Origin: an uncultured Erysipelotrichaceae bacterium
GTDB taxonomy: Bacteria > Bacillota_I > Bacilli_A > RFN20 > CAG-826
Length of the DNA stretch: 45,074 nucleotides
Reading direction: 5' to 3'
Assembly (NCBI GenBank): GCA_947166565.1
Contig: CAMVEL010000015.1
Span: forward strand, 1 to 45,074
Under the pieces are notes generated by a model. It was not told where the DNA came from. It searched no databases and saw nothing but the letters and a program-made list of their open reading frames with translations. How positions within the stretch are numbered: the first letter of the stretch is position 1; the number at the start of each line of letters is the position of its first letter. Positions 8,459-35,655 of the stretch are shown in pieces. Made by a program: the position numbers and the translations under genes.

Positions 8459-8672
8459 CTAGATTCTCTAAACACAGAAACGATTTTTCCCAAAAATAGT
8501 TTATTTCCTCATAAATGAGATTTTTCCCTACCTATATAAATACATATTCTTATCGCAAGAAAATCATATCAAATAATGCCATTTGAAAAGGTAAAATATG
8601 GACATAATCGCAAAAGCACATTTTCGTGTGTTTTGCCCTTATATAGCGCATAGCGCAAGAAAGGATAAAAGT

Positions 8673-11600
8673 ATGGTAAAGCCAAAACTATGGTTGGGTC
8701 TATCAGCCGTCGGTGTTTTACTGACCAGCATGATCCTTGCTGGACAAAGACTTTCTAATGAATACGAAGGTTTGATCAACGACGTCCTAGGCCTTTCCAC
8801 GCAGAAGATTTCCCGTATTGATTCCGACGAAGTCGAAGGCTCGGCCTATGTCGATGAGGATGGTTCCTTAAGCGACAGGGGCTGGAGGGCGATGATCAAG
8901 GATTCCTACAAATTCTGCGAAGAATGCGTCGAGCAGGGTTCCGTTTTGTTCAAGAACGCTGTCAAAGACGGAAAACCAACCCTCCCGCTAGCGGAAAACG
9001 AGAGAAACATTTCCTTGCTTGGACAAGGCAGTAAGAACTTGTTCATGCGTTCCGGTGCCGGCGGAGCTGCCCCGAACACCAACTTGGTCGTTAAACTAGA
9101 CAGAGCCTTCGAAGACAACGGCTTCTCGATCAACAGGACTGTCTTTGACCGCTATTCCACGCTCAGCCAATCCCAGATGACGAGCCCTGGAACCAACGTT
9201 GAACACGCATTCAACAATTTCTATACGGATGAGATGAAGGAATCCTTCTCCCAATATGGCGATGCCGCTATCATTACCTTCGTCCGTATCGGTACCGAGA
9301 ATACCGACCCATCCAATGGACAACTCAACCTTAAAGACGATGAAAAGAACCTCCTTAGGATGGTTAAGGAATATAAGGATAAAGGAACCTTTAAGAAGGT
9401 TATCGTCATCATCAACTCCCCGTTAGCGATGTCCACCGACTGGGTCGATAACGAGGAATTCGGCATCGACGCCTGCGTCTACATGGGCGTCCCAGGATAT
9501 TATGGTGCTGGCGGAATCGTCCACGTTTTGATGGGCAAAGACGCCGATGGCAAAGTCGTCAATCCTTCTGGCCACGCCCCGGATTCATTCGCTTCCATCG
9601 CTAGTTCCTCGCCAGCGTATCAAAACTTCGGCAACAGCCAACTCGCCGTCTACGCCGAAAACGTCTATGTCGGCTACAAATATTATGAAACCAGGTATGC
9701 CGATGGCGTCCTTGGACAAGGCAACGCCCTTGGCACAGCCGGCGTCTCCAATAGCCAAGGCAATTGGAACTATGCCGATGAAATGGGTTACCCATTCGGA
9801 TTTGGCCTTTCCTATACCAACTTCGACATGAAGCTTCTTGACGTTAGACATAACGCCGAGAAAGACACGATCGACGCGGTCGTCGACGTCACCAACTCCG
9901 GTGATATCGATGGCAGAGCCTCCGTCCAACTTTACGTCAATGCCCCATACACCGATTTTGATAAGAACAACGGCTTAGGCAAATCCGCCATCGCCCTTAT
10001 GGCTTATGAGAAAGTACCAGTCAAAGCCAAGCAGACCCAAAGGGTCACCCTTTCCTTCGATAGGTATTTCCTCACCACCTATGACTATGTGGTCAACAAG
10101 ACCTACATCCTTGAAGGCGGTAAGTATTACTTCGGTATCGGCAATGGCGCTCATGAAGCGTTGAACAACATCCTTTCTGTCTCCAACCCAGGCAAGGCCC
10201 TCGTCGACCACCTCGGCCAAGAATATCATGGCGTTTCCGACTGTGTGAAATCCCTTGATATCTCCGAAGACCGCCTCACCTACAAGAAGTCCCATTACAA
10301 TCCGGAAATCGAAGTCACCAACCAATTCGATGACGCCGATTACAACTGGATGGCCGAAAAGAACGGCAGGGACAAAATCAAATATCTTGATAGACAAGAC
10401 TGGGAAGGCACCTACCCAACCAGAATCTCCGTCAACCCCGCCACCAACGCCGATAGCAACATGGCCACCAAGTATCAACGCCCAACAGGCGATGATGCGC
10501 CGAAATACAAAGATGAGAACGGCAACGAAATCTATTCCAACATCGCCTATCATGACGATGAGGGAAAAGAGGTTCTCATCACCTTCAACGATATGACCAA
10601 AGTCCCGCTAGAGGGTGAGGTCAAAGAAGGCAAATTCGCTGGAAAGCAAGGCGCCGATATCTGGGATGCCTTCATCAAGCAGATGAGCCTTGATGACTTG
10701 GTCATCTCCGTCTCCGACAACCGTGGTATCCTCGACGTCAAGAAGGTCCAAAAGAAAGGTAACTCCGTTGCCGAAGGACCAGAAGGACTTCTCTCCAAAT
10801 ACCAATATGGTGACAAGAGATGGGCCACCGGTTTCCCAACCGGTCCGACATACACCGGAACCTTTGACCATGAAATGCAAAGGAAGTTCGGTGGATTCTA
10901 TGGTGAAGACGCCCTCTTCTGCGGCGTTGCCTCCGTTAACGCCCCAGGCGCCAACATCAACCGTACCCCATATGGTTCCCGTGCCTCCGAATACATGTCC
11001 GAAGACGGCATCATGAACTACTATGTCGCCTCCAACATCGTCGGTGAAGCGAGGAGAAAAGGTTTGATTATGAACATCAAACACTGCTTCTTGAACAACC
11101 AGGAATCCGGCCGTCAAAGGATCCATACCTATTGCAACGAGCAGGCTATCAGGGAAATCTACCTCAAGCCATTCGAAGGCGCCCTCACCAGAGGTCACGG
11201 CCTTGGCATCATGACTTCCTACAACCGTATCGGCGCGACCTACGCGGCCACCCATGAACCTCTTATGATGAACGTCATGAGGAAGGAATGGAACTACAAG
11301 GGCTTCATCATCGATGACGCGCTTACCGGCTCCAACACCGATCAATACAGTAACGGTCCAGCGATGCTTTATTGCGGAACCGACCTCTTCTGCCTTGACG
11401 GTAACCGCGGCAGGGATTTAAGAAGCTACATCGATAGCAACAACGACGGCACACTCCTAAAGTGCTTGCAAAGAGCGAATAAACACATCATGTATTCGAT
11501 CAGCAGGTCTTGGATGGGTGGCGTCAAAGTCTCCGAGGAAGAGCTCGAAGAATCCAGCAACCCATGGTGGAAGCAAACCGTTTCCGGGGCTGTCATCGGA

Positions 11601-11693
11601 GTGAGCGTCGTCACCGGTGGACTCGTCATCACCTATGTCGTCATGGAAATCCTTTCCAAACTCAAGAAAAAACCTGAGGCCCAAGGCCAATAA
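8673..11693 (+). CDS. Membrane-anchored glycoside hydrolase family 3 protein, inverted domain order
   Basis: I prefer ATG 8673, with AAGGA spaced 7 bases and only a short basic leader before the first TM. ATG 8598 in the same frame also has a ribosome site and would add 25 residues. The 1006-residue protein has an N-terminal TM (LWLGLSAVGVLLTSMILAG) and a C-terminal TM (AVIGVSVVTGGLVITYVV), so both ends are cytoplasmic and the enzyme faces outward. The GH3 C-terminal alpha/beta domain (SVLFKN..LPL) and a fibronectin-III-like domain come first, and the TIM barrel last. This permuted order is known from Ruminococcus and Butyrivibrio beta-glucosidases. The nucleophile region reads GFIIDDAL (Asp882 expected) instead of the usual SDW, and KHF is KHC. 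It may be an unusual beta-glycosidase or weakly active. It is cotranscribed with the next gene. Confidence 0.85.
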   Translation: MVKPKLWLGLSAVGVLLTSMILAGQRLSNEYEGLINDVLGLSTQKISRIDSDEVEGSAYVDEDGSLSDRGWRAMIKDSYKFCEECVEQGSVLFKNAVKDGKPTLPLAENERNISLLGQGSKNLFMRSGAGGAAPNTNLVVKLDRAFEDNGFSINRTVFDRYSTLSQSQMTSPGTNVEHAFNNFYTDEMKESFSQYGDAAIITFVRIGTENTDPSNGQLNLKDDEKNLLRMVKEYKDKGTFKKVIVIINSPLAMSTDWVDNEEFGIDACVYMGVPGYYGAGGIVHVLMGKDADGKVVNPSGHAPDSFASIASSSPAYQNFGNSQLAVYAENVYVGYKYYETRYADGVLGQGNALGTAGVSNSQGNWNYADEMGYPFGFGLSYTNFDMKLLDVRHNAEKDTIDAVVDVTNSGDIDGRASVQLYVNAPYTDFDKNNGLGKSAIALMAYEKVPVKAKQTQRVTLSFDRYFLTTYDYVVNKTYILEGGKYYFGIGNGAHEALNNILSVSNPGKALVDHLGQEYHGVSDCVKSLDISEDRLTYKKSHYNPEIEVTNQFDDADYNWMAEKNGRDKIKYLDRQDWEGTYPTRISVNPATNADSNMATKYQRPTGDDAPKYKDENGNEIYSNIAYHDDEGKEVLITFNDMTKVPLEGEVKEGKFAGKQGADIWDAFIKQMSLDDLVISVSDNRGILDVKKVQKKGNSVAEGPEGLLSKYQYGDKRWATGFPTGPTYTGTFDHEMQRKFGGFYGEDALFCGVASVNAPGANINRTPYGSRASEYMSEDGIMNYYVASNIVGEARRKGLIMNIKHCFLNNQESGRQRIHTYCNEQAIREIYLKPFEGALTRGHGLGIMTSYNRIGATYAATHEPLMMNVMRKEWNYKGFIIDDALTGSNTDQYSNGPAMLYCGTDLFCLDGNRGRDLRSYIDSNNDGTLLKCLQRANKHIMYSISRSWMGGVKVSEEELEESSNPWWKQTVSGAVIGVSVVTGGLVITYVVMEILSKLKKKPEAQGQ

Positions 11694-14280: not shown

Positions 14281-16743
14281 ATGAAGCTACGTCACAAGAT
14301 CATCCGCGCGGTCGTTTCCATCATCCCTGGGCTTTCCCAGACTTCGGTCCCCGCTCTTGACGATGGAAAAACCACCCCGGAGGAATTCAAAAAGCTTTGC
14401 CGCGAGGCCGCTACCGAATCCCTAGTTTTGCTCAAAAACGATGACATGCTCCCACTAAATAAAGATACGAGGATTTCCATCTTCGGTAGATGCCAAATCA
14501 ATTATTTCTTCTGTGGATATGGTTCTGGAGGAGACGTCAAAGCCCCATATAAGACCAATTTGCTTCAGGGCTTCTTTGAAGCGGGCGCAAAAGTTAATGA
14601 GGAACTAGCGAGCTGGTATCAAGAAAAATGCGCGGCGGATGTTCCTTATGACGGATTCTGGGGCGCTTGGCCTTATCATTATGATGAATTCAAGCTCGAA
14701 GACGAATTCGTTAAGAAGCAGGCCGCCAAATCCGATGCCGCGATCGTTGTCATCGGCAGAAGCTCCGGCGAAGACCGCGACACCAAATTAGTCGAAGGCT
14801 CCTGGTTCTTAACCAAAGACGAAAAGCGTCTTCTCGAACAGGTTACACGCGAATTCAAGAAAGTCCTGGTCGTCGTCAATTCCGGCGGATTCATCGATTT
14901 CAAATGGCTTGATAATTACAACATCTCCGCGTTGCTATTTGCTTGGCAGGGCGGTCAGGAATCCGGCGGATCCATTGCTGACGTTGTTTTGGGCATCTCC
15001 TATCCTTCGGGCAAGCTCGCCGATACGATTGCTAGGGAATACGATGATCAGCCCTCCAAAGACGAATTCGGACTTAAGAAAACCCATTACGTTGAGGACA
15101 TCTTCGTTGGGTATCGCTATTTCGAGACCTTTGCCAAGGAAAGGGTCCGTTTCCCCTTCGGATATGGCAAAACGTATACCAAATTCGATATCGACGCGAA
15201 AGGAAGAGGCAAGGTTGAAGACGATGAGGTTATCTTAAATCTCAACGTCAAGAACATCGGCGAATTCCGTGGCAAAGAAGTAGTCCAAGTCTATTATGGC
15301 GGTCCTAAAGGAAAACTCTCCAGGGCCGATAAGAACCTCGTCCGTTTCTATAAGACCAAAGAGTTGCAGCCGGAGGAAAACGAGGAATTCGAGATCCGTT
15401 TCAATATCAAAGACCTCGCTTCATTTGATGATACCGGTGTCACTGGACACAATATGTGCTGGGTCGTCGAACCTGGTGATTACCCCATTTACGTTGGTTC
15501 CGATGTCCGTCATGCCGAAAAGGTGATGGATGTCCACGTCGATGAACTCCGCGTCATCGAAGAACTCGAAGAGGCGGTTGGCGTCAAGGAATCCTTCAAG
15601 CGTATGGCTAACCGCAAAGGCGCGCTGACCTTTGAGGACGTTCCCGTTTCCAAGGTTTCGGTCAAAGACCGCATTGCCACCCAAATCCCTGCGGATATCC
15701 CACAAACCGGTGATAAAGGCTTCAAACTAAAAGACGTCAAAGAAGGCAAATGCACGATGGAGCAATTTATCGCTCAGCTTAATGACGTCGAGCTCGAAAA
15801 CCTCTCCCGCGGCAACCAAGGCGCGATGTTCTGCACCATCGGTATTCCAGGAAATGCCGGTGTCTTCGGTGGCATCACCGCGGATCTCCGTTATTATGGC
15901 ATTCCGACCATGAACACCAACGATGGCCAATCCGGCAACCGTTTCCAGCACCATACCACCCTTCTCCCAATCGGGGCCGCGCTTGGCTGCACCTGGAACC
16001 CGACGCTCGTCAAAGCCCTTTGCGATGAAGTCGGCAAAGAGCAACAAGCTGGTGATTCCCAGGTTATGTTAGCCCCTGCCATCAACCTCCACCGCAACCC
16101 ATTATGCGGCCGCAACTATGAATATTTCTCCGAAGACCCATATCTAACCGCCTTATTCGCGATCTCCTATATCAGAGGTATCCAGGATAATGGAGGTTCC
16201 GCGACCATCAAGCACTTCGCTTGCAATAACCAAGAGAAGCACCGTTGGTCCGGTGATTCCATCGTCTCCCAGAAAGCTCTTCGCGAAATCTATCTCCGTG
16301 CCTTTGAAATCGCCATCAAGGAAGCCAAACCGCATTGGGTCATGACCTCCTATAACAGGATTAATGGCATTCTCAACGCCTATTCCTTCGATTTGATTGA
16401 CACTATCCTCCGTCGTCAATGGGGCTTCAAGGGCCTTACGATGACCGACTGGTGGGTTTGGAAGGAAAAGTGCCCGGATTACAAGCACATCAAAGACCAT
16501 GGCTGGAGAATCCGCGCTGGCAACAACCTCTTCATGCCGGGTTCCGACCGTTTGAAGAGATTACAGCCCTCAATCTTCCAATGCCTCCACAAAGAGGACG
16601 GTCTCACCTTAGGTGAACTTCAACGTGCGGATATGGGAATTCTACAATTCATCATTGACCATTTCCCCGAACGCATGGACAATATATCGATTGCGATGGA
16701 GGACAAATATGACAAGTCCCCACGCAATAAAATGCCAGAATAA
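14281..16743 (+). CDS. Glycoside hydrolase family 3 beta-glycosidase, inverted domain order, cytoplasmic
   Basis: This 820-residue GH3 enzyme has no convincing signal peptide. Like the enzyme at 8673 it is permuted: alpha/beta domain first (SLVLLKNDDMLPL, about 41-53), a fibronectin-III-like domain in the middle, and the TIM barrel last. Unlike that paralog, its catalytic motifs are canonical: GRNYEYFSEDPYL (substrate contacts), IKHFACNNQE (KHF) and TMTDWWVWK with nucleophile Asp723. It should release terminal beta-linked sugars from imported oligosaccharides; beta-glucosidase is the family default, but specificity cannot be read from sequence. The start follows AAGGAGAACATACC. It lies 5 bases before the glycosyltransferase and so heads the operon. 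Confidence 0.9.
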   Translation: MKLRHKIIRAVVSIIPGLSQTSVPALDDGKTTPEEFKKLCREAATESLVLLKNDDMLPLNKDTRISIFGRCQINYFFCGYGSGGDVKAPYKTNLLQGFFEAGAKVNEELASWYQEKCAADVPYDGFWGAWPYHYDEFKLEDEFVKKQAAKSDAAIVVIGRSSGEDRDTKLVEGSWFLTKDEKRLLEQVTREFKKVLVVVNSGGFIDFKWLDNYNISALLFAWQGGQESGGSIADVVLGISYPSGKLADTIAREYDDQPSKDEFGLKKTHYVEDIFVGYRYFETFAKERVRFPFGYGKTYTKFDIDAKGRGKVEDDEVILNLNVKNIGEFRGKEVVQVYYGGPKGKLSRADKNLVRFYKTKELQPEENEEFEIRFNIKDLASFDDTGVTGHNMCWVVEPGDYPIYVGSDVRHAEKVMDVHVDELRVIEELEEAVGVKESFKRMANRKGALTFEDVPVSKVSVKDRIATQIPADIPQTGDKGFKLKDVKEGKCTMEQFIAQLNDVELENLSRGNQGAMFCTIGIPGNAGVFGGITADLRYYGIPTMNTNDGQSGNRFQHHTTLLPIGAALGCTWNPTLVKALCDEVGKEQQAGDSQVMLAPAINLHRNPLCGRNYEYFSEDPYLTALFAISYIRGIQDNGGSATIKHFACNNQEKHRWSGDSIVSQKALREIYLRAFEIAIKEAKPHWVMTSYNRINGILNAYSFDLIDTILRRQWGFKGLTMTDWWVWKEKCPDYKHIKDHGWRIRAGNNLFMPGSDRLKRLQPSIFQCLHKEDGLTLGELQRADMGILQFIIDHFPERMDNISIAMEDKYDKSPRNKMPE

Positions 16744-28623: not shown

Positions 28624-29912
28624 GTACCGCGGCGATTTTGGATATAGTCATCATTGCCGTTCTTCTTGTTTTCAGTGCTTTCTTTTCGATGTGCGACATG
28701 GCCTATTCGACGGTTAATATTAATAGGCTAAAAAAGTCAAAGGCAAGCACGGCAAAACTTGCTTTGAAATATGCTTCCGAATACGAAAAATCTATTACGA
28801 CCCTTCTATTTTCAAATGCCTTTGTTAATGTAGTAGCTTCATCAATCGGCGCTTTGTTTGCTATAAATATCGTCAATGATTTCAATATTGATCCTTCTTA
28901 TGGAGGGTTAACATCCACCCTCGTATCTTTAGGAATGCTTCTTTTGATTCTGACTTTCGGAGAAATTCTTCCTAAAGCCTTTGCCAAAGCCCATTCCTAT
29001 GGCGTCTCCCTCTTCGGGGCCCCTGTTGTCAAGTTCTTCTCAATCGTTTTCTTCCCAATTGTCTTCCCCTCAACTTGGTTTGCCAAAACCATTACCAAAC
29101 CGATTATCGAGAAATTCGACGACGATTTGCCTCCTGGAGACGAAGAGCTTTCCATCATGGTCGAGGCCATTGAAAAAGAGGGTATCATCGATGAGGATAA
29201 CGCCGAGATGCTTCATAGCGCGCTCGAATTCAAAGACACCGCCGCCTATGAAATAATGACCCCACGTATGCGAATTGAGGGAATTGAAAGGAAAACTGAC
29301 CTTATCCGTTTCGTTCAAGGAGGAGGGAAATTCAAGCATTCCCGCGTACCGGTGTATGAGAATGATTTAGACCACATCGTTGGTTATATCCCTGTCAAAT
29401 CGCTTTATAAGGCCATGCTTTTTGAAAAGAAAGTTACGGTCGACTCTTTATTGACTGAGGTCCTAGAAGTTCCAAGAACCGCTGAAATCTCCTCTATCTT
29501 GGAGGAAATGAAGAAAGTCCATCGCCATATCGCTGTCGTCAAAGACGAATATGGCGGCACCGATGGTATTTTGACTTTAGAAGATATCATCGAAGAACTC
29601 GTTGGTGAGCTTTACGATGAGTCCGAGACCGTTAAGGTCGATATTGCCAAAACCCAGAAGAGGAATCAATTCCTTGTTTTGGGAAGTTGCAACATCGATC
29701 TCTTCTTTGAAACCTTCCACATCGATGAAGAAGAGAGGGGAGAAGGGTATGAGACCCTTTCAGGATTTATCAACGAGAGACTCGGCGATTTCGCTAAAGT
29801 CGGCGATGAGGTTGTCTTACTAAAAGTTGATATCAAAGTAATAAAAGCCTCCCCATATGTCGTCGAGGAGGCCTTAATCACATATCATCCGAGAAGGAAG
29901 AAGATTAACTAA
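28620..29912 (+). CDS. CNNM/CBS-domain membrane protein with CorC_HlyC domain, full-length form
   Basis: 430 residues. CNNM TM region (VIIAVLLVFSAFFSMCDMAYSTV and later helices), CBS pair (MTPRMRIEGIERK.. to ..YGGTDGILTLEDIIEELVGELYDE) and a C-terminal CorC_HlyC domain (NQFLVLGSCNIDLF..GYETLSGFINERLGDFAKVGD). This is the usual full plan for bacterial Mg2+/Co2+ efflux proteins. Its start overlaps the stop of its shorter paralog, and its stop overlaps the convergent gmk gene by 8 bases. Confidence 0.93.
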   Translation: MSTAAILDIVIIAVLLVFSAFFSMCDMAYSTVNINRLKKSKASTAKLALKYASEYEKSITTLLFSNAFVNVVASSIGALFAINIVNDFNIDPSYGGLTSTLVSLGMLLLILTFGEILPKAFAKAHSYGVSLFGAPVVKFFSIVFFPIVFPSTWFAKTITKPIIEKFDDDLPPGDEELSIMVEAIEKEGIIDEDNAEMLHSALEFKDTAAYEIMTPRMRIEGIERKTDLIRFVQGGGKFKHSRVPVYENDLDHIVGYIPVKSLYKAMLFEKKVTVDSLLTEVLEVPRTAEISSILEEMKKVHRHIAVVKDEYGGTDGILTLEDIIEELVGELYDESETVKVDIAKTQKRNQFLVLGSCNIDLFFETFHIDEEERGEGYETLSGFINERLGDFAKVGDEVVLLKVDIKVIKASPYVVEEALITYHPRRKKIN

Positions 29913-30450
29913 TTCGCTTTTCGTATTCCTTTTTATAAAGATCATGAATGAGTTTCGTTAATTCATCGATGCCTTTATCACTGGTGTCGATTTCAAAATC
30001 CGTCGGGGCTACGTTTTCTTTAGCGAAGGCCACACGATCGTTTTCTAATCTAGATTCTATCGCGTGGGCGTCATCAAGACGTTTTTCCATTCTTTCTTTG
30101 CGCGTTTCCTCGTTGCAAGAGAGAAGAAAAGTGATAATTGATTTGTCTTTTAACGCAAGGAAAGACAATAGACCGGACGGATCGACGATGACGACTTTAT
30201 CGACGCCGATCTCTGCCTTAGAACAACCGTAGTAATTTCCGTTATAGTAAGTTGTCTCGACGAAGGCGTCTTCTTTTTTAAGGCGAAGGAATTCGTCCTG
30301 ACTCACGAAATGGTAATCGATATGATTCCTTTCGCCTACTCGTGGTGACCTTGTCGTATGGGTCACCGCTTTTTTGATGCCGAAAAGGGTTCCTAGTCTT
30401 TTCGCGATTTCCGTTTTGCCACTAGCTGAAGCACCGATTAAAACTATCAT
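29905..30450 (-). CDS. gmk: Guanylate kinase
   Basis: I start at Met 30450; the longer frame to 30591 adds an unlike, low-complexity stretch and crosses the promoter. The 181-residue enzyme phosphorylates GMP with ATP. P-loop GASASGKT (residues 6-13), GMP-binding TRSPRVGERNHIDYHFV and the ..FVETTYYNGNYYG lid are family features. The Ala in place of the usual Pro/Gly of the P-loop is mildly unusual, and the protein is slightly shorter than typical Gmk (about 200). There is no ribosome site. A consensus TATAAT ends 6 bases before the ATG, so the transcript should begin at the start codon (leaderless). It overlaps the convergent gene by 8 bases. Confidence 0.88.
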   Translation of the reverse strand: MIVLIGASASGKTEIAKRLGTLFGIKKAVTHTTRSPRVGERNHIDYHFVSQDEFLRLKKEDAFVETTYYNGNYYGCSKAEIGVDKVVIVDPSGLLSFLALKDKSIITFLLSCNEETRKERMEKRLDDAHAIESRLENDRVAFAKENVAPTDFEIDTSDKGIDELTKLIHDLYKKEYEKRIS

Positions 30451-30456
30451 GACGCA

Positions 30457-30485
30457 ATTATAGTAGATGGCAACGGCATTTTCGA
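30457..30485 (-). promoter_or_regulatory. Leaderless promoter of gmk
   Basis: Minus strand: TCGAAA (30485-30480), 17-bp spacer, TATAAT (30462-30457), then 6 bases to the ATG at 30450. Confidence 0.6.
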
Positions 30486-30607
30486 CACATTTATAAGACG
30501 ATTTTCCTCTTAGCCCAAAAAAGTTTTTAAAAAAGTTTTCATTTTTTTGAGCCAAATTTTGATTTTTTTCACTATTAGTTAGTAGAGGCACATTTTTGGA
30601 GAGCCGA

Positions 30608-30694
30608 ATGAAAAGAGGAAAAAAACATGAACGAAAACAGTCAAAAAGTCAGACCGCGTTACGTCGCGGAAACCTTAAGGAAGAGGTTGCGTAG
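30608..30694 (+). CDS. Possible 28-residue basic leader peptide ahead of the pilus operon
   Basis: ATG 30608 has GGAGAG 6 bases upstream. The frame reads 28 residues, about a third Lys or Arg, and ends inside the next gene, which it overlaps out of frame. It could be a leader ORF controlling translation of the operon, or chance. No comparative evidence is available. Confidence 0.25.
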   Translation: MKRGKKHERKQSKSQTALRRGNLKEEVA

Positions 30695-30989
30695 AAGCCT
30701 TACCAACGTAGGGATGAGCCCTTTGATGAGGGTAGAAGAGGTGGATCTATCCCATGTTTCCTTCCTTACTCCCAAAAAGGAAGTCGATTTCATCAGGAAG
30801 ATGAAACGTTTCCTAATGGAATTAGATCCACTTGAACGCGAATTCTTCGACAAGGAGTTCCTCTGTTTAGGGGTCGAATATCGTTTTTGGTGGAGGTTTT
30901 ATTTCAATAGCGATAGCGAGTATTCCTCCGAAATGAGATTTTTGGCTTATCGGGCTTACAAAACTTTAGGAGGTTATTTCGATGCTTAA
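30627..30989 (+). CDS. Hypothetical 120-residue protein, first gene of the pilus operon, possibly a DNA-binding regulator
   Basis: Not confidently recognised. The N-terminal third is very basic (RPRYVAETLRKRLRRSL). The C-terminal part, ELDPLEREFFDKEFLCLG..WWRFYFNSDSEYSSEMRFLAYRAYKTLGGYF, has the pattern LxxxEREFIxxxYF..W....S...YRxRxxAYKxL, weakly reminiscent of the ArpU/RinA-like phage regulators and sigma-70 region 4. No signal or TM. The start has GAGG at 9 bases. It overlaps the next gene by 8 bases, so it is the operon head and may be its regulator; inference only. Confidence 0.65.
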   Translation: MNENSQKVRPRYVAETLRKRLRRSLTNVGMSPLMRVEEVDLSHVSFLTPKKEVDFIRKMKRFLMELDPLEREFFDKEFLCLGVEYRFWWRFYFNSDSEYSSEMRFLAYRAYKTLGGYFDA

Positions 30990-32031
30990 AGGAAAAAGAA
31001 GTAGAAAGTTCTTACTAGTTTCCGCGACGCTGCTTTCTAGCTTCGCGGCTTCAGGGGAAAGCCTATTCGATGGGATTACCTATGATATAGGTCCTTTAGT
31101 GGCAGGATCCCCTCTTACCATTCGTTTCCGCTATACGAATAGGGATTTGCCGAGATACGAGTATTCATGGACCCTTTATCAGGATTCAAGCAAGGCCAAA
31201 ACACTTTATTCACAATTAACCAAATCAGGGGTTTTGAGTTCTTCAAACCCTGAATTCTATGATGAATCTAGCGTCCCCGCCTATTATACGAAGGTCTATT
31301 CTAGCGTCTTCCTTGTTATCAACTTCAATTTCAAGGCCAGCATCTTTTCACAAACCTATCCTCTCACGGCTTCATGGAATATCGAACGGTTTGGCGATCA
31401 AATGGTCCTAGAAGACCCGCAGGAAAACAAAGTCTATGACACCTATAGGTGGTGCAACCGTTTCTCAAACGGAAATCAGCTTAAAGAAAGCGACCTTTAT
31501 CGGATTGGTTCCTGGAGTAAGGATAATGGTCAAAAACAATATCATGGGTTAAATATTTCCTCTTTCACAATCGGCTTTCATGGAGGGATCAACAATTCAA
31601 ACGTCCTTTCAGGAAAAAGCGATTTATACATCTTCTCATATCCAGACGAATGGACCGTTTTCCCAAAAGTCTTCGTAAATGGGAAATATGCTGCCAAAGT
31701 CCCTTTGGTATTCGAGTATCTTTCCAACTGGACGAGCGATCAGGGGGTCCTCTTCCGCATATATAAGGTTCAGACAGAGTTTTCCTACTATGTCTCTAGG
31801 CTTGATTATTCGATGTATTCAAGCACTCCGCCAATAAATGATTATTTCCGTTCAAATGACGTTTTCATTCCGACTAAAAAAGGCCATGACGATGCTTTGT
31901 ATCAATGCCAATTAAATCTTTATGACCTGACGGAGTATAGGGACAGGATCACCGTCAATTTCATGGCGAACAACACCGGGAAGTTCTTCGGAAATTGCGT
32001 CGAAGCCGATTACTGCGTCGCCCTAGGATAG
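30982..32031 (+). CDS. Exported 349-residue protein of the pilus operon
   Basis: Not recognised. A basic N terminus (MLKGKRSRKFLL) and a hydrophobic stretch to FAASGES form a likely Sec signal with cleavage near residue 26. The rest is beta-strand-rich, aromatic (many Tyr, Phe and Trp) and low in Cys, without repeats or a C-terminal anchor. Start ATG overlaps the previous stop and has TTAGGAGG. Position between the operon head and pilin-like genes suggests an extracellular pilus accessory, adhesin or assembly factor; no catalytic motif is visible. Confidence 0.72.
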   Translation: MLKGKRSRKFLLVSATLLSSFAASGESLFDGITYDIGPLVAGSPLTIRFRYTNRDLPRYEYSWTLYQDSSKAKTLYSQLTKSGVLSSSNPEFYDESSVPAYYTKVYSSVFLVINFNFKASIFSQTYPLTASWNIERFGDQMVLEDPQENKVYDTYRWCNRFSNGNQLKESDLYRIGSWSKDNGQKQYHGLNISSFTIGFHGGINNSNVLSGKSDLYIFSYPDEWTVFPKVFVNGKYAAKVPLVFEYLSNWTSDQGVLFRIYKVQTEFSYYVSRLDYSMYSSTPPINDYFRSNDVFIPTKKGHDDALYQCQLNLYDLTEYRDRITVNFMANNTGKFFGNCVEADYCVALG

Positions 32032-32041
32032 GAGGAAAGCC

Positions 32042-32440
32042 ATGGTACATATTTTGGGTTCAACCATTATTATGGTTACGATTATCCATTTTTTCTCGGT
32101 CAACTACACCATCTCCAATATCGAGAGGGCATATCTAGGATTATATAAAGGAATCGCCGAGAATTCGGTAATCGTCTCCGATTCAACTGGGGCGGAACTT
32201 AACGAGCCCGTTTTCTCAAGGACGACTTTCACCGCGAACGTCAAAGCCTATTGCGAATTGGAGGTTAAACCGATTTGCAAATATTCGCTTTCCATAAACT
32301 ATTATGCCAAATCCGGTCAATCCGGACTTACCTCTCCTTACAAAGCGAAGGTCACGATCACTTTCTATCCAAAGATGTGGAAAAGAATCTCCCGCGTTGC
32401 CACATTCCAAATCGTTAAGGGGCTAGAAAATTATGGATAA
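32042..32440 (+). CDS. Single-TM pseudopilin-like protein
   Basis: 132 residues. A hydrophobic helix lies at the very N terminus (ILGSTIIMVTIIHFF), followed by an outside region with a Cys pair (YCELEVKPIC) and a beta-rich C terminus. The plan (short leader, TM, small globular part) is that of TadE/TadF-like pseudopilins rather than a Sec substrate, but no Gly-x4-Glu cleavage motif is seen. It has GGAGGAAAG before the ATG and overlaps tadA by 8 bases. Confidence 0.65.
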   Translation: MVHILGSTIIMVTIIHFFSVNYTISNIERAYLGLYKGIAENSVIVSDSTGAELNEPVFSRTTFTANVKAYCELEVKPICKYSLSINYYAKSGQSGLTSPYKAKVTITFYPKMWKRISRVATFQIVKGLENYG

Positions 32441-33398
32441 TGACGAGAAACTCGTGGCCTTCATGGAGAGCTCTTTCCTTTCCGACCTTCTAAGGGAGAA
32501 AGCCGTGACCGATATATCTTGGAATGGCGAATCCATCTTTTATATGGATAACGCTTATGGCCGCAAAAAAAGCGACATGCCTCTCACGAATGAAGAAGTC
32601 GGTTCCTTTCTAAGGCAAATTGCAAATTTTTCAGAGAAGCAATTCTCCTATAAGGAACCGATCTTGGATGTGAGTTTTTCAAGATATCGCCTTAACGCCA
32701 CGTTCTTATCCCTTGTGAGGGTCAATAACAAAAAGGCCTATTCATTCTCTCTGCGTATTGCTTCAAGTGGCTCCGCGGTCGAAAACAGCAAAACCTTTTT
32801 CCCAGGTGAGACAAGAGAACGTCTTCTTGAGGCAATAGACAAGGGGAAATCCATCATCATCGCGGGGGAGACGGGGTGTGGGAAAACCGAACTGCAGAAG
32901 TTCCTTTTGCTTCACCTAAGACCATTTACGAGGGTCATCGTCATCGATAATGTCCAGGAGTTGGAATTAAGTAGAGGAAACGGCGATTTGGATATGACGA
33001 GTTGGCTTGTTGATGAAAGATCACCGGAATCCTCTTTCCAAACCCTTATCAGAAACGCTTTGAGAAACAACCCCGATTATCTTCTCGTCGCGGAATCCCG
33101 TGGCCCTGAGATGCTAGATGCTCTAAATGCCGTAATGTCCGGACACCCGTTAATTACAACCATCCACGCTTTGGACGTATCCGCGGTTCCCCATCGCATG
33201 GCTAGGATGGCTATGCAAGCCGGCAAGAACCTCGTATATGACGAACTCCTCGATGACATCTACCACCACATTTCCATTGTCGTTTATCTGAAAAGATCCG
33301 TTTCCGAGGATGGAACGATATTCCGCAGGATTTCCGAGATGGGTTATCTAAACGAAACGACTCGGAAGATCGATTACTTTTATAAGGAGAACAATTAG
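32433..33398 (+). CDS. tadA: Type II/IV secretion-family ATPase, TadA/CpaF-like
   Basis: 321-residue cytoplasmic assembly ATPase for pilin polymerisation. Walker A GETGCGKT lies at 145-152. Walker B/glutamate PDYLLVAESRG (from 214, Glu221) has Ser where most TadA have Val (EVRG). The Asp-box (VIVIDNVQELEL) and the HAL..(TIHALD) His-box are present. It lacks the long N-terminal extension of typical CpaF, so it is a short form. It lies 1 base ahead of the tadB-like gene. Confidence 0.9.
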   Translation: MDNDEKLVAFMESSFLSDLLREKAVTDISWNGESIFYMDNAYGRKKSDMPLTNEEVGSFLRQIANFSEKQFSYKEPILDVSFSRYRLNATFLSLVRVNNKKAYSFSLRIASSGSAVENSKTFFPGETRERLLEAIDKGKSIIIAGETGCGKTELQKFLLLHLRPFTRVIVIDNVQELELSRGNGDLDMTSWLVDERSPESSFQTLIRNALRNNPDYLLVAESRGPEMLDALNAVMSGHPLITTIHALDVSAVPHRMARMAMQAGKNLVYDELLDDIYHHISIVVYLKRSVSEDGTIFRRISEMGYLNETTRKIDYFYKENN

Positions 33399-33399
33399 T

Positions 33400-34131
33400 A
33401 TGAAAACATCATTCATCGTCTGCTTGGTTATATCTTTGGTTTGTGCTTTCGCTTCGTTTTTTGCTAGCGATTCCATTATCTTCGCTTTAGGCGTTGCTTT
33501 GGTTTTCGTTCTTGTTTTGTCTTTATCCGTGATACCAATGGTTGAGAAATTCAAAACAAGGGAAAGAAAGCGACACGAATGTTTCCATTTTATAAATACC
33601 TTCGTGACGACCCTTTCGGTAAGCGAATCAATAGACTTAGCCTATGCTTCATCAATTCAGGGGCAAGGAAGCGAATTGACCTCTTTAAGCCAATCCATTT
33701 CCGAATTGTCCACGATAGAGAAAATCGAATACCTTGCATCCTATTTTGATTCGCCTATCTACCGAATGTTTTTATCGACGTTATCGATTTATCAAGATCA
33801 AGGAGGGGACATAATCCGACTTTCCAACGAACTTCTCGCCGAGCTTACGCGTATCGAGGAAACCGAAAACGACGTCATATCAATCAATCGCAAGAACCTG
33901 ATTCAGTTCGGTTTGCTTTGGTCGATGTCTTTGGCTATTACGGTTTTCCTGAGATTTGGGTTATCAAATTTCTACGATGTATTGAAAACCAGCGTTACCT
34001 TCCTCTCTTGTCTTGCGGCCTTCTTCGTTTTGATGCTTGGCTCAATTGTGGTTTACGTTAGCTTCTATACTGGAGAAAAAATAGCTTTCGGCCTTAGCAA
34101 AAAAGAGGAATACAAGGAGGTCAAGGCATGA
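33400..34131 (+). CDS. tadB: TadB-like inner-membrane platform protein
   Basis: 243 residues with two N-terminal TM helices (FIVCLVISLVCAFASFF and IIFALGVALVFVLVLSLSVIPM), a cytoplasmic helical T2SSF-like region with LSxSxSxSLAYASS and YQDQGGDI blocks, and two C-terminal TM helices. This matches T2SSF/TadB proteins that couple the ATPase to the growing pilus. It ends in ATGA overlap with the next gene. Confidence 0.82.
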   Translation: MKTSFIVCLVISLVCAFASFFASDSIIFALGVALVFVLVLSLSVIPMVEKFKTRERKRHECFHFINTFVTTLSVSESIDLAYASSIQGQGSELTSLSQSISELSTIEKIEYLASYFDSPIYRMFLSTLSIYQDQGGDIIRLSNELLAELTRIEETENDVISINRKNLIQFGLLWSMSLAITVFLRFGLSNFYDVLKTSVTFLSCLAAFFVLMLGSIVVYVSFYTGEKIAFGLSKKEEYKEVKA

Positions 34132-34796
34132 AGAACATACGCAAAAACATGGTTCTTTTGAATCTTAACGAGAACAAGGAATTCGCCGTCTATTTCCTCT
34201 GTGTGGTTTTGTTTATAGGATTAGGTGTCGGCCTATTTATTCTCCGTGGCCAAATCCTATTCCTTCTCTTTCCTGTACTTGGTTTATTGGTGTTCACATA
34301 TTTCTATTTTTCGAGATATGAAAGGATGTTGCGGAAAATAGCATTCCAAGACGAGGAGGAATTCGTAAGCCTCTTTACCTTTTTCCAGGTTTATCTAAAT
34401 GATGGCTTCAACGTTTATAACGCTTTGCAGTCCATTATTTCTTATGCCTCTGATTCGGTGAGGGTTCATTTGGAAAAACTCGTCAATGATATCGAAAACG
34501 ACAAAACAGTGACCCCATACATCGAATTTGCGGATCATTTCAATGATATCCAAATTAATCAGGTGATGCTTTCCGTCTATCAAATGGTCGATCAAGGAAC
34601 CAACGAAGTCTATCTAAGGCAGTTCCGCCAAATTTTCGGTCGTCTGTCCGATCAAAAACATGAACTTGGAAAGCAGAAGAAGATAGAAAGAGTTTCGTCT
34701 CTTTCCGCATTGCCTCTTATTGGCTCAGGAGTCTCAATGGTGATGTTATTGACCGCGTTGGTCGAGATTATGGGAGGTGTTATGAATGGCCTATAA
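34128..34796 (+). CDS. tadC: TadC-like inner-membrane platform protein
   Basis: 222 residues with the same plan as its neighbour: TM helices near residues 16-34 and 37-56, a cytoplasmic helical region (EEEFVSLFTFFQVYLNDGFNVYNALQSIISYA) and a C-terminal TM (LPLIGSGVSMVMLLTALVEIMGGV). The paired arrangement after tadB is the norm in Tad systems, where TadB and TadC form the platform together. It overlaps tadB by 4 and the next gene by 11 bases. Confidence 0.8.
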   Translation: MKNIRKNMVLLNLNENKEFAVYFLCVVLFIGLGVGLFILRGQILFLLFPVLGLLVFTYFYFSRYERMLRKIAFQDEEEFVSLFTFFQVYLNDGFNVYNALQSIISYASDSVRVHLEKLVNDIENDKTVTPYIEFADHFNDIQINQVMLSVYQMVDQGTNEVYLRQFRQIFGRLSDQKHELGKQKKIERVSSLSALPLIGSGVSMVMLLTALVEIMGGVMNGL

Positions 34797-35136
34797 GATT
34801 TCTTTGTTGCTCTCTAGCGTTTTCCTGATGTTCGTTTTTCTTCTTGCCTGCGACTTGATGTGTATTTCCCATATTCATTCAAGTCTTAACGCTCTGGCGA
34901 CCACGGTAGGCTACCGAATCGCCAAAGAGGGGGCGATTTCACAGACAACCGTGAATTTATTGAATAACTACAACGCCAGGATCCTTTCCTCCCATCAAGG
35001 TCCCTTATGGGTTGGAATGACCTTCACGTTCAAATTAAGAAGGGACTACACGCCTTTAATTATGTCCAAAAACACGATGGCGATTACGGTGCAGCACTCA
35101 ACCATCGTGGGCTACTATGACTCGTATTATCAATGA
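34786..35136 (+). CDS. TadE-like pseudopilin, single TM
   Basis: 116 residues. A hydrophobic N-terminal helix (ISLLLSSVFLMFVFLLACDLMC) is followed by a small outside domain; no catalytic motif. Size, N-terminal TM and position after the platform genes fit a minor pilin. I cannot show a prepilin cleavage site. The start overlaps tadC by 11 bases, so translation is coupled. Confidence 0.65.
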   Translation: MAYKISLLLSSVFLMFVFLLACDLMCISHIHSSLNALATTVGYRIAKEGAISQTTVNLLNNYNARILSSHQGPLWVGMTFTFKLRRDYTPLIMSKNTMAITVQHSTIVGYYDSYYQ

Positions 35137-35153
35137 AAGGAGGTGAATAGAAT

Positions 35154-35300
35154 ATGTCCGAAATCAAAGGTCAACTTTTGGGAATGCTCATGGTTCTCGT
35201 CATGTTCGGTCTTTTCGGAAGTGTGCTTTACGCGAGCTTCTCCGGCTCCGTCGACACCCTTTCCCAGAAACTATCTGACGAGACCTCCCTTATAGCTTAA
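35154..35300 (+). CDS. Small Flp-like pilin candidate, 48 residues
   Basis: Short frame with ATG 35154 and TAA 35298-35300, preceded by AAAGGAGGTGA, the strongest ribosome site in the operon, fitting a high-output major subunit. The peptide reads MSEIKGQLLGMLMVLVMFG, then LFGSVLYASFSGSVDTLSQ, then KLSDETSLIA: a short charged leader, KG followed by Q and a long hydrophobic helix, then a soluble tail of about 20 residues. Class III (Flp/archaeal) prepilins are cleaved after Gly in such a position, so cleavage after KG is predicted. The usual Glu at +5 is missing. It is the last gene before a terminator. Confidence 0.75.
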   Translation: MSEIKGQLLGMLMVLVMFGLFGSVLYASFSGSVDTLSQKLSDETSLIA

Positions 35301-35320: not shown

Positions 35321-35356
35321 GCGTAATAGGCAACTGTCGTCTATTGCGCCTTTTTG
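35321..35356 (+). terminator. Terminator of the pilus operon
   Basis: GCGTAATAG (35321-35329) and CTATTGCGC (35341-35349) form a 9-bp stem with one G-U, an 11-nt loop and a TTTTT tail. Confidence 0.85.
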
Positions 35357-35409: not shown

Positions 35410-35655
35410 ATGGAAAATGAAATAATGGCTCGTATCAAATCGCTTTTCTGCGAAAGGCTTAACATCAAAAACATCGAAATGGACACTGATTTGGCTGGGC
35501 TAGGACTTGATAGTCTCGACGTTGTCGAAATGTGCTATGCGGTCGAAGAAGAAGTCGGCATTCATTTTGAGACCGAAGAACTCTCCAGCTTTAAGACCGT
35601 TGGCGATCTCTTCAACTCCATTGAGAAGAAACTAGCTGAAAAGAAAGCTGCTTAA
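35410..35655 (+). CDS. acpP: Acyl carrier protein
   Basis: 81 residues, carrying fatty-acyl chains on a phosphopantetheine arm in lipid synthesis. The attachment Ser lies in GLDSLDVVEM (residue 37 region). Acidic four-helix ACP sequence of normal length. The start has ACGAGGA. It has its own promoter and no fatty-acid genes beside it. Confidence 0.95.
   Translation: MENEIMARIKSLFCERLNIKNIEMDTDLAGLGLDSLDVVEMCYAVEEEVGIHFETEELSSFKTVGDLFNSIEKKLAEKKAA

Follow-up and report, generated by a model that had tools for sequence, protein, structure and literature searches.

A compact Tad-like operon with no recognised prepilin leader or prepilin peptidase

The operon and its conservation

The stretch of DNA analysed here (the window, 45,074 nucleotides from an uncultured Erysipelotrichaceae bacterium) encodes a putative surface machine related to Tad pili. 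It comprises eight open reading frames (ORFs; g1 to g8 in order) on the plus strand at 30627..35300, which overlap or are separated by gaps of at most 17 bases (Table 1). A preliminary description, made from the sequence alone, had proposed eight tightly coupled genes for a compact pilus. All eight ORFs were recovered at that place on one strand, and their order was intact in 42/42 loci from the window's family (f1). These loci, the window included, were chosen by g4, which is present by construction, and include the near-copies L001, L006, L008, and L009. Profile matches were found for g1 in 39 loci, g2 in 41, g3 in 42, g5 in 42, g6 in 42, g7 in 41, and g8 in 40; the full set of eight is present in 37/42. 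The eight genes are a real, conserved operon.

The g4 ATPase was detected in 81/96 sampled f1 genomes (58/66 of those of good quality). The g7 protein was also detected in 81, and 76 genomes have both. Five genomes, all of genus g9 within f1, have only g7, and another five have only the ATPase. The f1 ATPases form a single clade (support 97/98), separate from the ATPases of related families. Titles of ATPase-bearing contigs include uncultured Erysipelotrichaceae bacterium, Bacilli, and Bacillales bacterium; judging by these titles, some contigs come from the rumen or reticulum of sheep or goats.

The core of the operon (TadA, TadB, and TadC) is Tad-like. We identified g4 as a Tad-type ATPase with intact catalytic motifs by its matches to VirB11 (E 2e-36), the TadA family (3e-29), and T2SSE (5e-20), and by the P-loop GETGCGKT with E221, R223, and H245. 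These motifs are intact in 36/37 aligned sequences, as judged from aligned columns; His-box and Walker-B patterns had missed several intact ATPases. Two paired platform proteins follow. Matches to T2SSF at E<=0.01 are weak (2/37 members of g6 and 1/36 of g5), and the g6 profile also matches g5 in some genomes. Compared with plasmid platform proteins using hhalign, g5 scored 95.7% and g6 96.8%. For g7, weak matches to TadF (6/37 members) and TadE (1/37) were found at E<=0.05, and TadF-like proteins of family f11 match the g7 profile down to 6e-7. The predicted structure of g3 (predicted local distance difference test score, pLDDT, 91) has a helix at 2-41 and an alpha/beta head, the lollipop outline of pilins. 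The earlier statement that the non-ATPase proteins show no clear family holds for most of them, apart from these weak T2SSF and TadF/TadE matches, and the proposal of a compact, secretin-less Tad-like machine with a TadE/F-like protein, a pilin-shaped g3, and a tiny pilin is supported.

The first gene probably encodes a DNA-binding regulator, based on matches to MPN403_MG284_C in 27/34 members at E<=0.01 and to ArpU in 6/34; the window protein matches MPN403_MG284_C at E 0.0047, below the curated cut-off. For g2, Pfam and NCBIfam scans returned no family, and further comparisons gave only generic Ig-like matches. Its model (pLDDT 80) has a helix at 7-23 followed by strands that form beta-sandwich domains. 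The alignment has a mean identity of 18% and is better conserved toward the C-terminus. As an exported protein, g2 fits the tip role suggested for it in the preliminary description, or a display role.

The Pfam and NCBIfam scans gave no peptidase, CpaB/C, or pilotin among the eight operon proteins, in agreement with the preliminary description. Nor did these proteins include TadZ/CpaE, CpaB/RcpC, or a secretin, which were not searched for genome-wide. A secretin is not expected in monoderms. No relaxase, VirD4, or VirB4 was noticed by eye among the window ORFs, for which no family scan was made. A terminator-like hairpin lies behind g8, but it is weak evidence for the operon end by itself because five such sites were observed against 5.6 in shuffles. 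Elsewhere in the window, two large genes that look like beta-glucosidases by eye (GH3-like) lie near each other at 8598-11693 and 14281-16743.

Table 1. Operon genes and adjacent features, in window coordinates
Feature	Position	Strand	Length (aa, amino acids)	Description
g1	30627..30989	+	120	Putative DNA-binding regulator, MG284/MPN403-like, helix-turn-helix-like C-terminus
g2	30982..32031	+	349	Exported, signal-peptide-like N-terminus (by eye), beta-sandwich domains; proposed adhesin
g3	32042..32440	+	132	Pilin-shaped, membrane helix directly at start
g4	32433..33398	+	321	TadA/VirB11-type ATPase
g5	33400..34131	+	243	TadB-like platform protein
g6	34128..34796	+	222	TadC-like platform protein
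g7	34786..35136	+	116	TadE/TadF-like minor pilin without leader
g8	35154..35300	+	48	Tiny pilin, proposed major subunit; N-terminus M[SGA]E[ILV][KN]G
Terminator-like hairpin	35321..35349	+		Operon end, 3' of g8
Guanylate-kinase-like (gmk-like) neighbour	29905..30591	-		By eye; upstream, outside the machine; kept in 39/42 loci
Acyl-carrier-protein-like (acp-like) neighbour	35410..35655	+		By eye; outside the machine; kept in 35/42 loci

Prepilin peptidase and leader

The preliminary description placed the prepilin peptidase elsewhere in the genome. This fails, because even at E<=10 the window's own genome, which is 91.85% complete, yields no match to Peptidase_A24 (PF01478), and only 1/96 f1 genomes has one, compared with 81/96 for the ATPase. 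Arc_PepC_II scored above its cut-off in 0/96. The A24 search was not blind, as it matched 125/296 genomes of a class-wide sample and 12/14 controls. Among class-sample genomes with a TadC-like match, A24 was found in 1/33 from f1 versus 21/24 others (counts matched by eye). In the three non-f1 genomes with a TadC-like match and no A24 (G123, G195, and G170), the TadC-like matches are weak and lie in long frames. None of six f2 genomes of the same order is among the A24-positive rows of that sample. An assembly gap hiding the peptidase was also considered and rejected, given that 95/96 genomes are negative, including two listed as 100% complete (G017 and G018) that have the ATPase and no A24. 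The preliminary description had named a missing peptidase together with unconserved gene order as what would tell against its proposal; half of this was found, in that no peptidase was detected but gene order is conserved.

The single A24-positive f1 genome, G065, encodes the peptidase apart from the operon, among PilB/PilC-like genes and proteins with FTLIEL or FTLVEL segments; its g8 resembles other g8 sequences. This additional locus (L048) looks like a type II secretion or type IV pilus system that has an A24 peptidase and FTLIEL pilins.

The pilin-like proteins also lack a recognised leader. We searched the first 30 residues for a class III signal (SPIII) using our own regular expression (one of G/A/S, any four positions, an acid, then a hydrophobic stretch), with a positive charge required before the motif. 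No match was found in 38 g3, 38 g7, or 37 g8 sequences (0/113 in total). These counts exclude the four near-copies; L012 was also excluded from the ATPase-motif and g8-alignment counts. Applied to four classical Tad loci of family f11, the same expression recognised 6/10 pilin-like N-termini, and the four misses were TadF-like. When the limits on position and charge were lifted, g8 gave one match (L076, position 37), beyond the membrane helix. In g7, about four residues precede a hydrophobic one (I, L, F, V, or M) at position 5; the f11 relatives have G-1 there.

The g8 N-terminus fits M[SGA]E[ILV][KN]G in 37/37 sequences, and an alignment of 36 rows shows no variation at M1, E3, G6, L9, or F18. 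Because E3 is conserved within the would-be leader, this pattern suggests that the segment is retained in g8 and not cleaved, with recognition by a peptidase of an unrecognised kind as the alternative. A second g8-like match beside the first was seen in one genome (G017:C3:114057-114418), in a frame with one stop.

A second type of Tad-like operon, headed by a large surface protein, was encountered in family f11 (L112, L113, L114, L116, L117, L122, and L123). In several of these loci it is followed by membrane proteins that resemble PrgI, VirB6, and VirB2 by eye. The tiny pilins of this operon type show no GxxxxE leader; for most of them the N-terminus reads MKEATGEL, which shares E3 and G6 with g8.

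Motorless and plasmid-borne relatives

Some relatives of the operon lack both the motor and g8. In genus g9, every one of the five genomes in the sample keeps g1, g2, g3, g5, g6, and g7 and lacks g4 and g8; g5 directly follows g3, and in two loci the ORF picker had missed g5 although its reading frame is open. G355 retains g2, g3, g5, g6, and g7. Two sister-family genomes (G244 and G293) encode g2, a g3-like protein, one long platform-like protein, and g7, again with no g4 or g8; g1 was seen in G244, and the G293 contig ends within g2. In G049, the ATPase is altered at four catalytic positions (the P-loop T, E221, R223, and H245) that are intact in the 36 other aligned rows, and g8 is missing. 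Behind g7 in this locus (L065) are two genes for 320- and 195-aa proteins with N-terminal membrane helices.

In whole-genome searches of these nine genomes, g4 was represented by the copy in G049; the other g4 matches were short, P-loop-like, and no stronger than E 0.001. No g8 match was stronger than E 0.013. Overall, g8 occurs in 36/36 loci with an intact ATPase and in 0/9 without, and so appears tied to the motor, which fits a pilin that is polymerised. The remaining genes of genus g9 are under purifying selection, with ratios of nonsynonymous to synonymous substitution rates (dN/dS) of about 0.005 to 0.16 in two close locus pairs. This shows that the rest of the operon is useful without the motor and g8.

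Related modules were found on plasmids of Gram-positive bacteria. In a search covering at most 5000 records, the best 12 plasmid matches for g4 are to Bacillus and Listeria plasmids. The module was seen in pDSYZ, pLIS40, pID-A02, and a plasmid of a B. subtilis natto isolate with a pLS20_p028-family gene. The plasmid order is an exported protein, none to several small genes, a protein of about 128 aa, the ATPase, two platform proteins, one protein of about 120 aa, and proteins of 47-50 aa. The g3 to g7 profiles match the plasmid proteins in order, most strongly for the ATPase (E-values were computed against very small databases), so that collinear counterparts of the pseudopilin, the ATPase, the platform pair, and the TadE-like protein of the pLS20-type module are all present. 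None of seven plasmid N-termini tested has an SPIII motif.

The exported protein at the front is annotated as a thioester protein in three of the plasmids; the pDSYZ copy is annotated as hypothetical and is similar by eye. No such thioester adhesin leads the window operon, since g2 has no Pfam match, and the g2 profile does not match the Tie proteins of pDSYZ or pLIS40. The Tie protein of pLS20 is reported to be required for efficient mating, and the available text of that report leaves open what keeps it on the surface of the donor (PMC8092201). In a further report, as far as its available text goes, Tie forms surface foci and virB11 is treated as a secretion-system gene (PMC11730352). Among the matches listed from open-licence PMC literature, the plasmid module is nowhere recognised as a pilus, and no type IV filament without any peptidase is recognised. 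The pLS20-type conjugative plasmids (L137, L138, L139, and L149) have this unannotated Tad-like module immediately behind or close to the thioester adhesin gene. More broadly, a homologue of its TadC was noted in 141 plasmid records, 94 of them typed as conjugative. Of the 15 TadC homologues among the matches listed, 14 are annotated as hypothetical and one has no feature.

Proposed function and comparison with known systems

Gene content and order, g3 to g7 homology to plasmid proteins, the lack of A24 and of a leader motif, and the joint absence of g4 and g8 are features of the sequences themselves. From them we infer adhesion by g2, its tip position, polymerisation of g8, lack of processing, and regulation of the operon by g1. 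After Sec export, g2 would be retained at the cell surface through the heads of g3 and g7, two minor pilins that stay uncleaved and anchored in the membrane, seated on the TadB/TadC-like platform of g5 and g6. Where present, g4 would assemble g8 beneath the g2 tip and push the adhesin outward. In relatives without g4 and g8, a fixed display complex would remain. We consider the chances evenly balanced that this is a Tad-like surface machine working without prepilin processing. A broader proposal, which we put forward more tentatively, is that the operon represents a type IV filament lineage without such processing, with leaderless, uncleaved pilins in which acidic residue 3 perhaps replaces the charge role of Glu5; that the same leaderless mini-Tad displays Tie on Gram-positive conjugative plasmids; and that in several gut lineages it has shrunk further to a motorless, pilin-less platform for adhesin display.

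Several observations weigh against this interpretation. The absence of the peptidase is judged by two Pfam models. The fold search with g3 did not single out pilins. Adhesion is proposed for g2 from its position and fold class, and g2 has no homology to Tie or to any adhesin family. On the plasmid side, the small proteins correspond to g8 by place only. The 128-aa protein of pLIS40 scores best with g6 (E 0.004) and second with g3 (0.017), its TadB-like protein also scores best with g6, and so do both platform proteins of pID-A02. Furthermore, the operon is not universal in f1, because the ten of 96 genomes with neither ATPase nor g7 include good-quality ones.

According to the main rival, this is a Tad pilus and some peptidase outside the recognised families processes g8 after G6; a peptidase of a wholly different family would escape our profile searches. 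In g8, G6 (37/37), K5 (36/37), and Q7 (35/37) retain the K-G-Q that surrounds the cleavage site in classical f11 prepilins with GQxLVE, which also counts against the unprocessed pilin proposed above. However, g8 has no E at +5, E3 in the would-be leader is invariant, g3 and g7 offer no site, no candidate protease is present among the operon proteins, and Arc_PepC_II is lacking across f1. We regard such processing as possible but unlikely. Short pilins, an exported g2 encoded first, and the lack of a visible retraction ATPase in the operon would also suit a pseudopilus that pushes g2 or other cargo through the cell wall, making this a secretion machine and not an adhesive pilus. This seems improbable, as g2 carries a signal peptide of its own (by eye) and genus g9 keeps g2 while doing without the motor and g8.

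Another reading considered was a pilus for DNA uptake that serves ComEC in place of a Com pilus. ComEC-like matches (weak, so some may be missed) were found in 59/96 f1 genomes, including that of the window (G000:C2:60166-60696), versus A24 in 1/96; a standard Com pilus would therefore not be expected. The best models for g4 are VirB11 and the TadA family, not ComGA-type, and the window's genome has no A24. The DNA-uptake reading is weakened because the ATPase shows no association with ComEC (51/81 genomes with ATPase versus 8/15 without; p 0.57, our Fisher tests treating genomes as independent and ignoring kinship); moreover, motorless forms exist and the exported g2 has no known role of this type. 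We set it aside as improbable. Collinearity with a module of conjugative plasmids could instead mark the operon as the remnant of a mobile, conjugative element, but it occurs in 81/96 genomes, mostly in one chromosomal place (gmk-like neighbour 39/42, acp-like 35/42) and with its order kept, its ATPases form one clade, and purifying selection was found in genus g9, where tested. The chance of such an origin is very slim.

Assembly of type IV filaments is held to require removal of the leader by a dedicated peptidase, according to the available text of one account (PMC10191384). A machine present in most f1 genomes, with the enzyme missing in nearly all, would show that this rule is escapable. 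The motorless forms indicate which parts of the machine are separable. Through the plasmid link, it becomes possible to test what keeps the Tie protein of pLS20 on its donor cell, and whether a pilus has been overlooked in Gram-positive mating systems. Gram-positive conjugative plasmids are thought to lack a pilus; if the broader proposal is true, a leaderless mini-Tad displays their Tie adhesins. The missing cleavage motif, the plasmid relatives, and the motorless relatives are all new beyond the preliminary description.

The operon behaves like that of a Tad pilus but fails two defining tests, the peptidase and the leader, and because both were looked for and not found we do not file it as canonical. 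With the Tad/Flp (type IVc) pilus it shares a TadA-branch ATPase, paired platform proteins, a candidate TadE/F-like protein, and a tiny pilin; it differs in lacking TadV/A24, an SPIII leader, E5, TadZ, RcpA/RcpC, and CpaB in the operon, and in having motorless forms. Tad-like loci of five Gram-positive species likewise have Tad genes without a recognisable prepilin leader, with no SPIII-bearing protein noted in the available text of that report, but they contain tadV, tadZ, and rcpC homologues (PMC3244431). The MSH loci, as described in the available text of another, also have no prepilin peptidase; other systems in the genome encode one (PMC6668835), whereas none was found elsewhere in the genome here. 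The pLS20-type module has homologous, collinear g3 to g7, an exported surface protein in front, tiny proteins last, and N-termini likewise without SPIII (7/7). It differs in lying on plasmids in a mating operon, in its front protein (a thioester adhesin of 770-780 aa), in its longer ATPase, in the absence of g1, in the weak pLIS40 matches to g3 and TadB, and in its host, as B. subtilis itself has an A24 peptidase (a control of our A24 search). Except for Tie and the ATPase, the proteins of the pLS20-type module are annotated as hypothetical.

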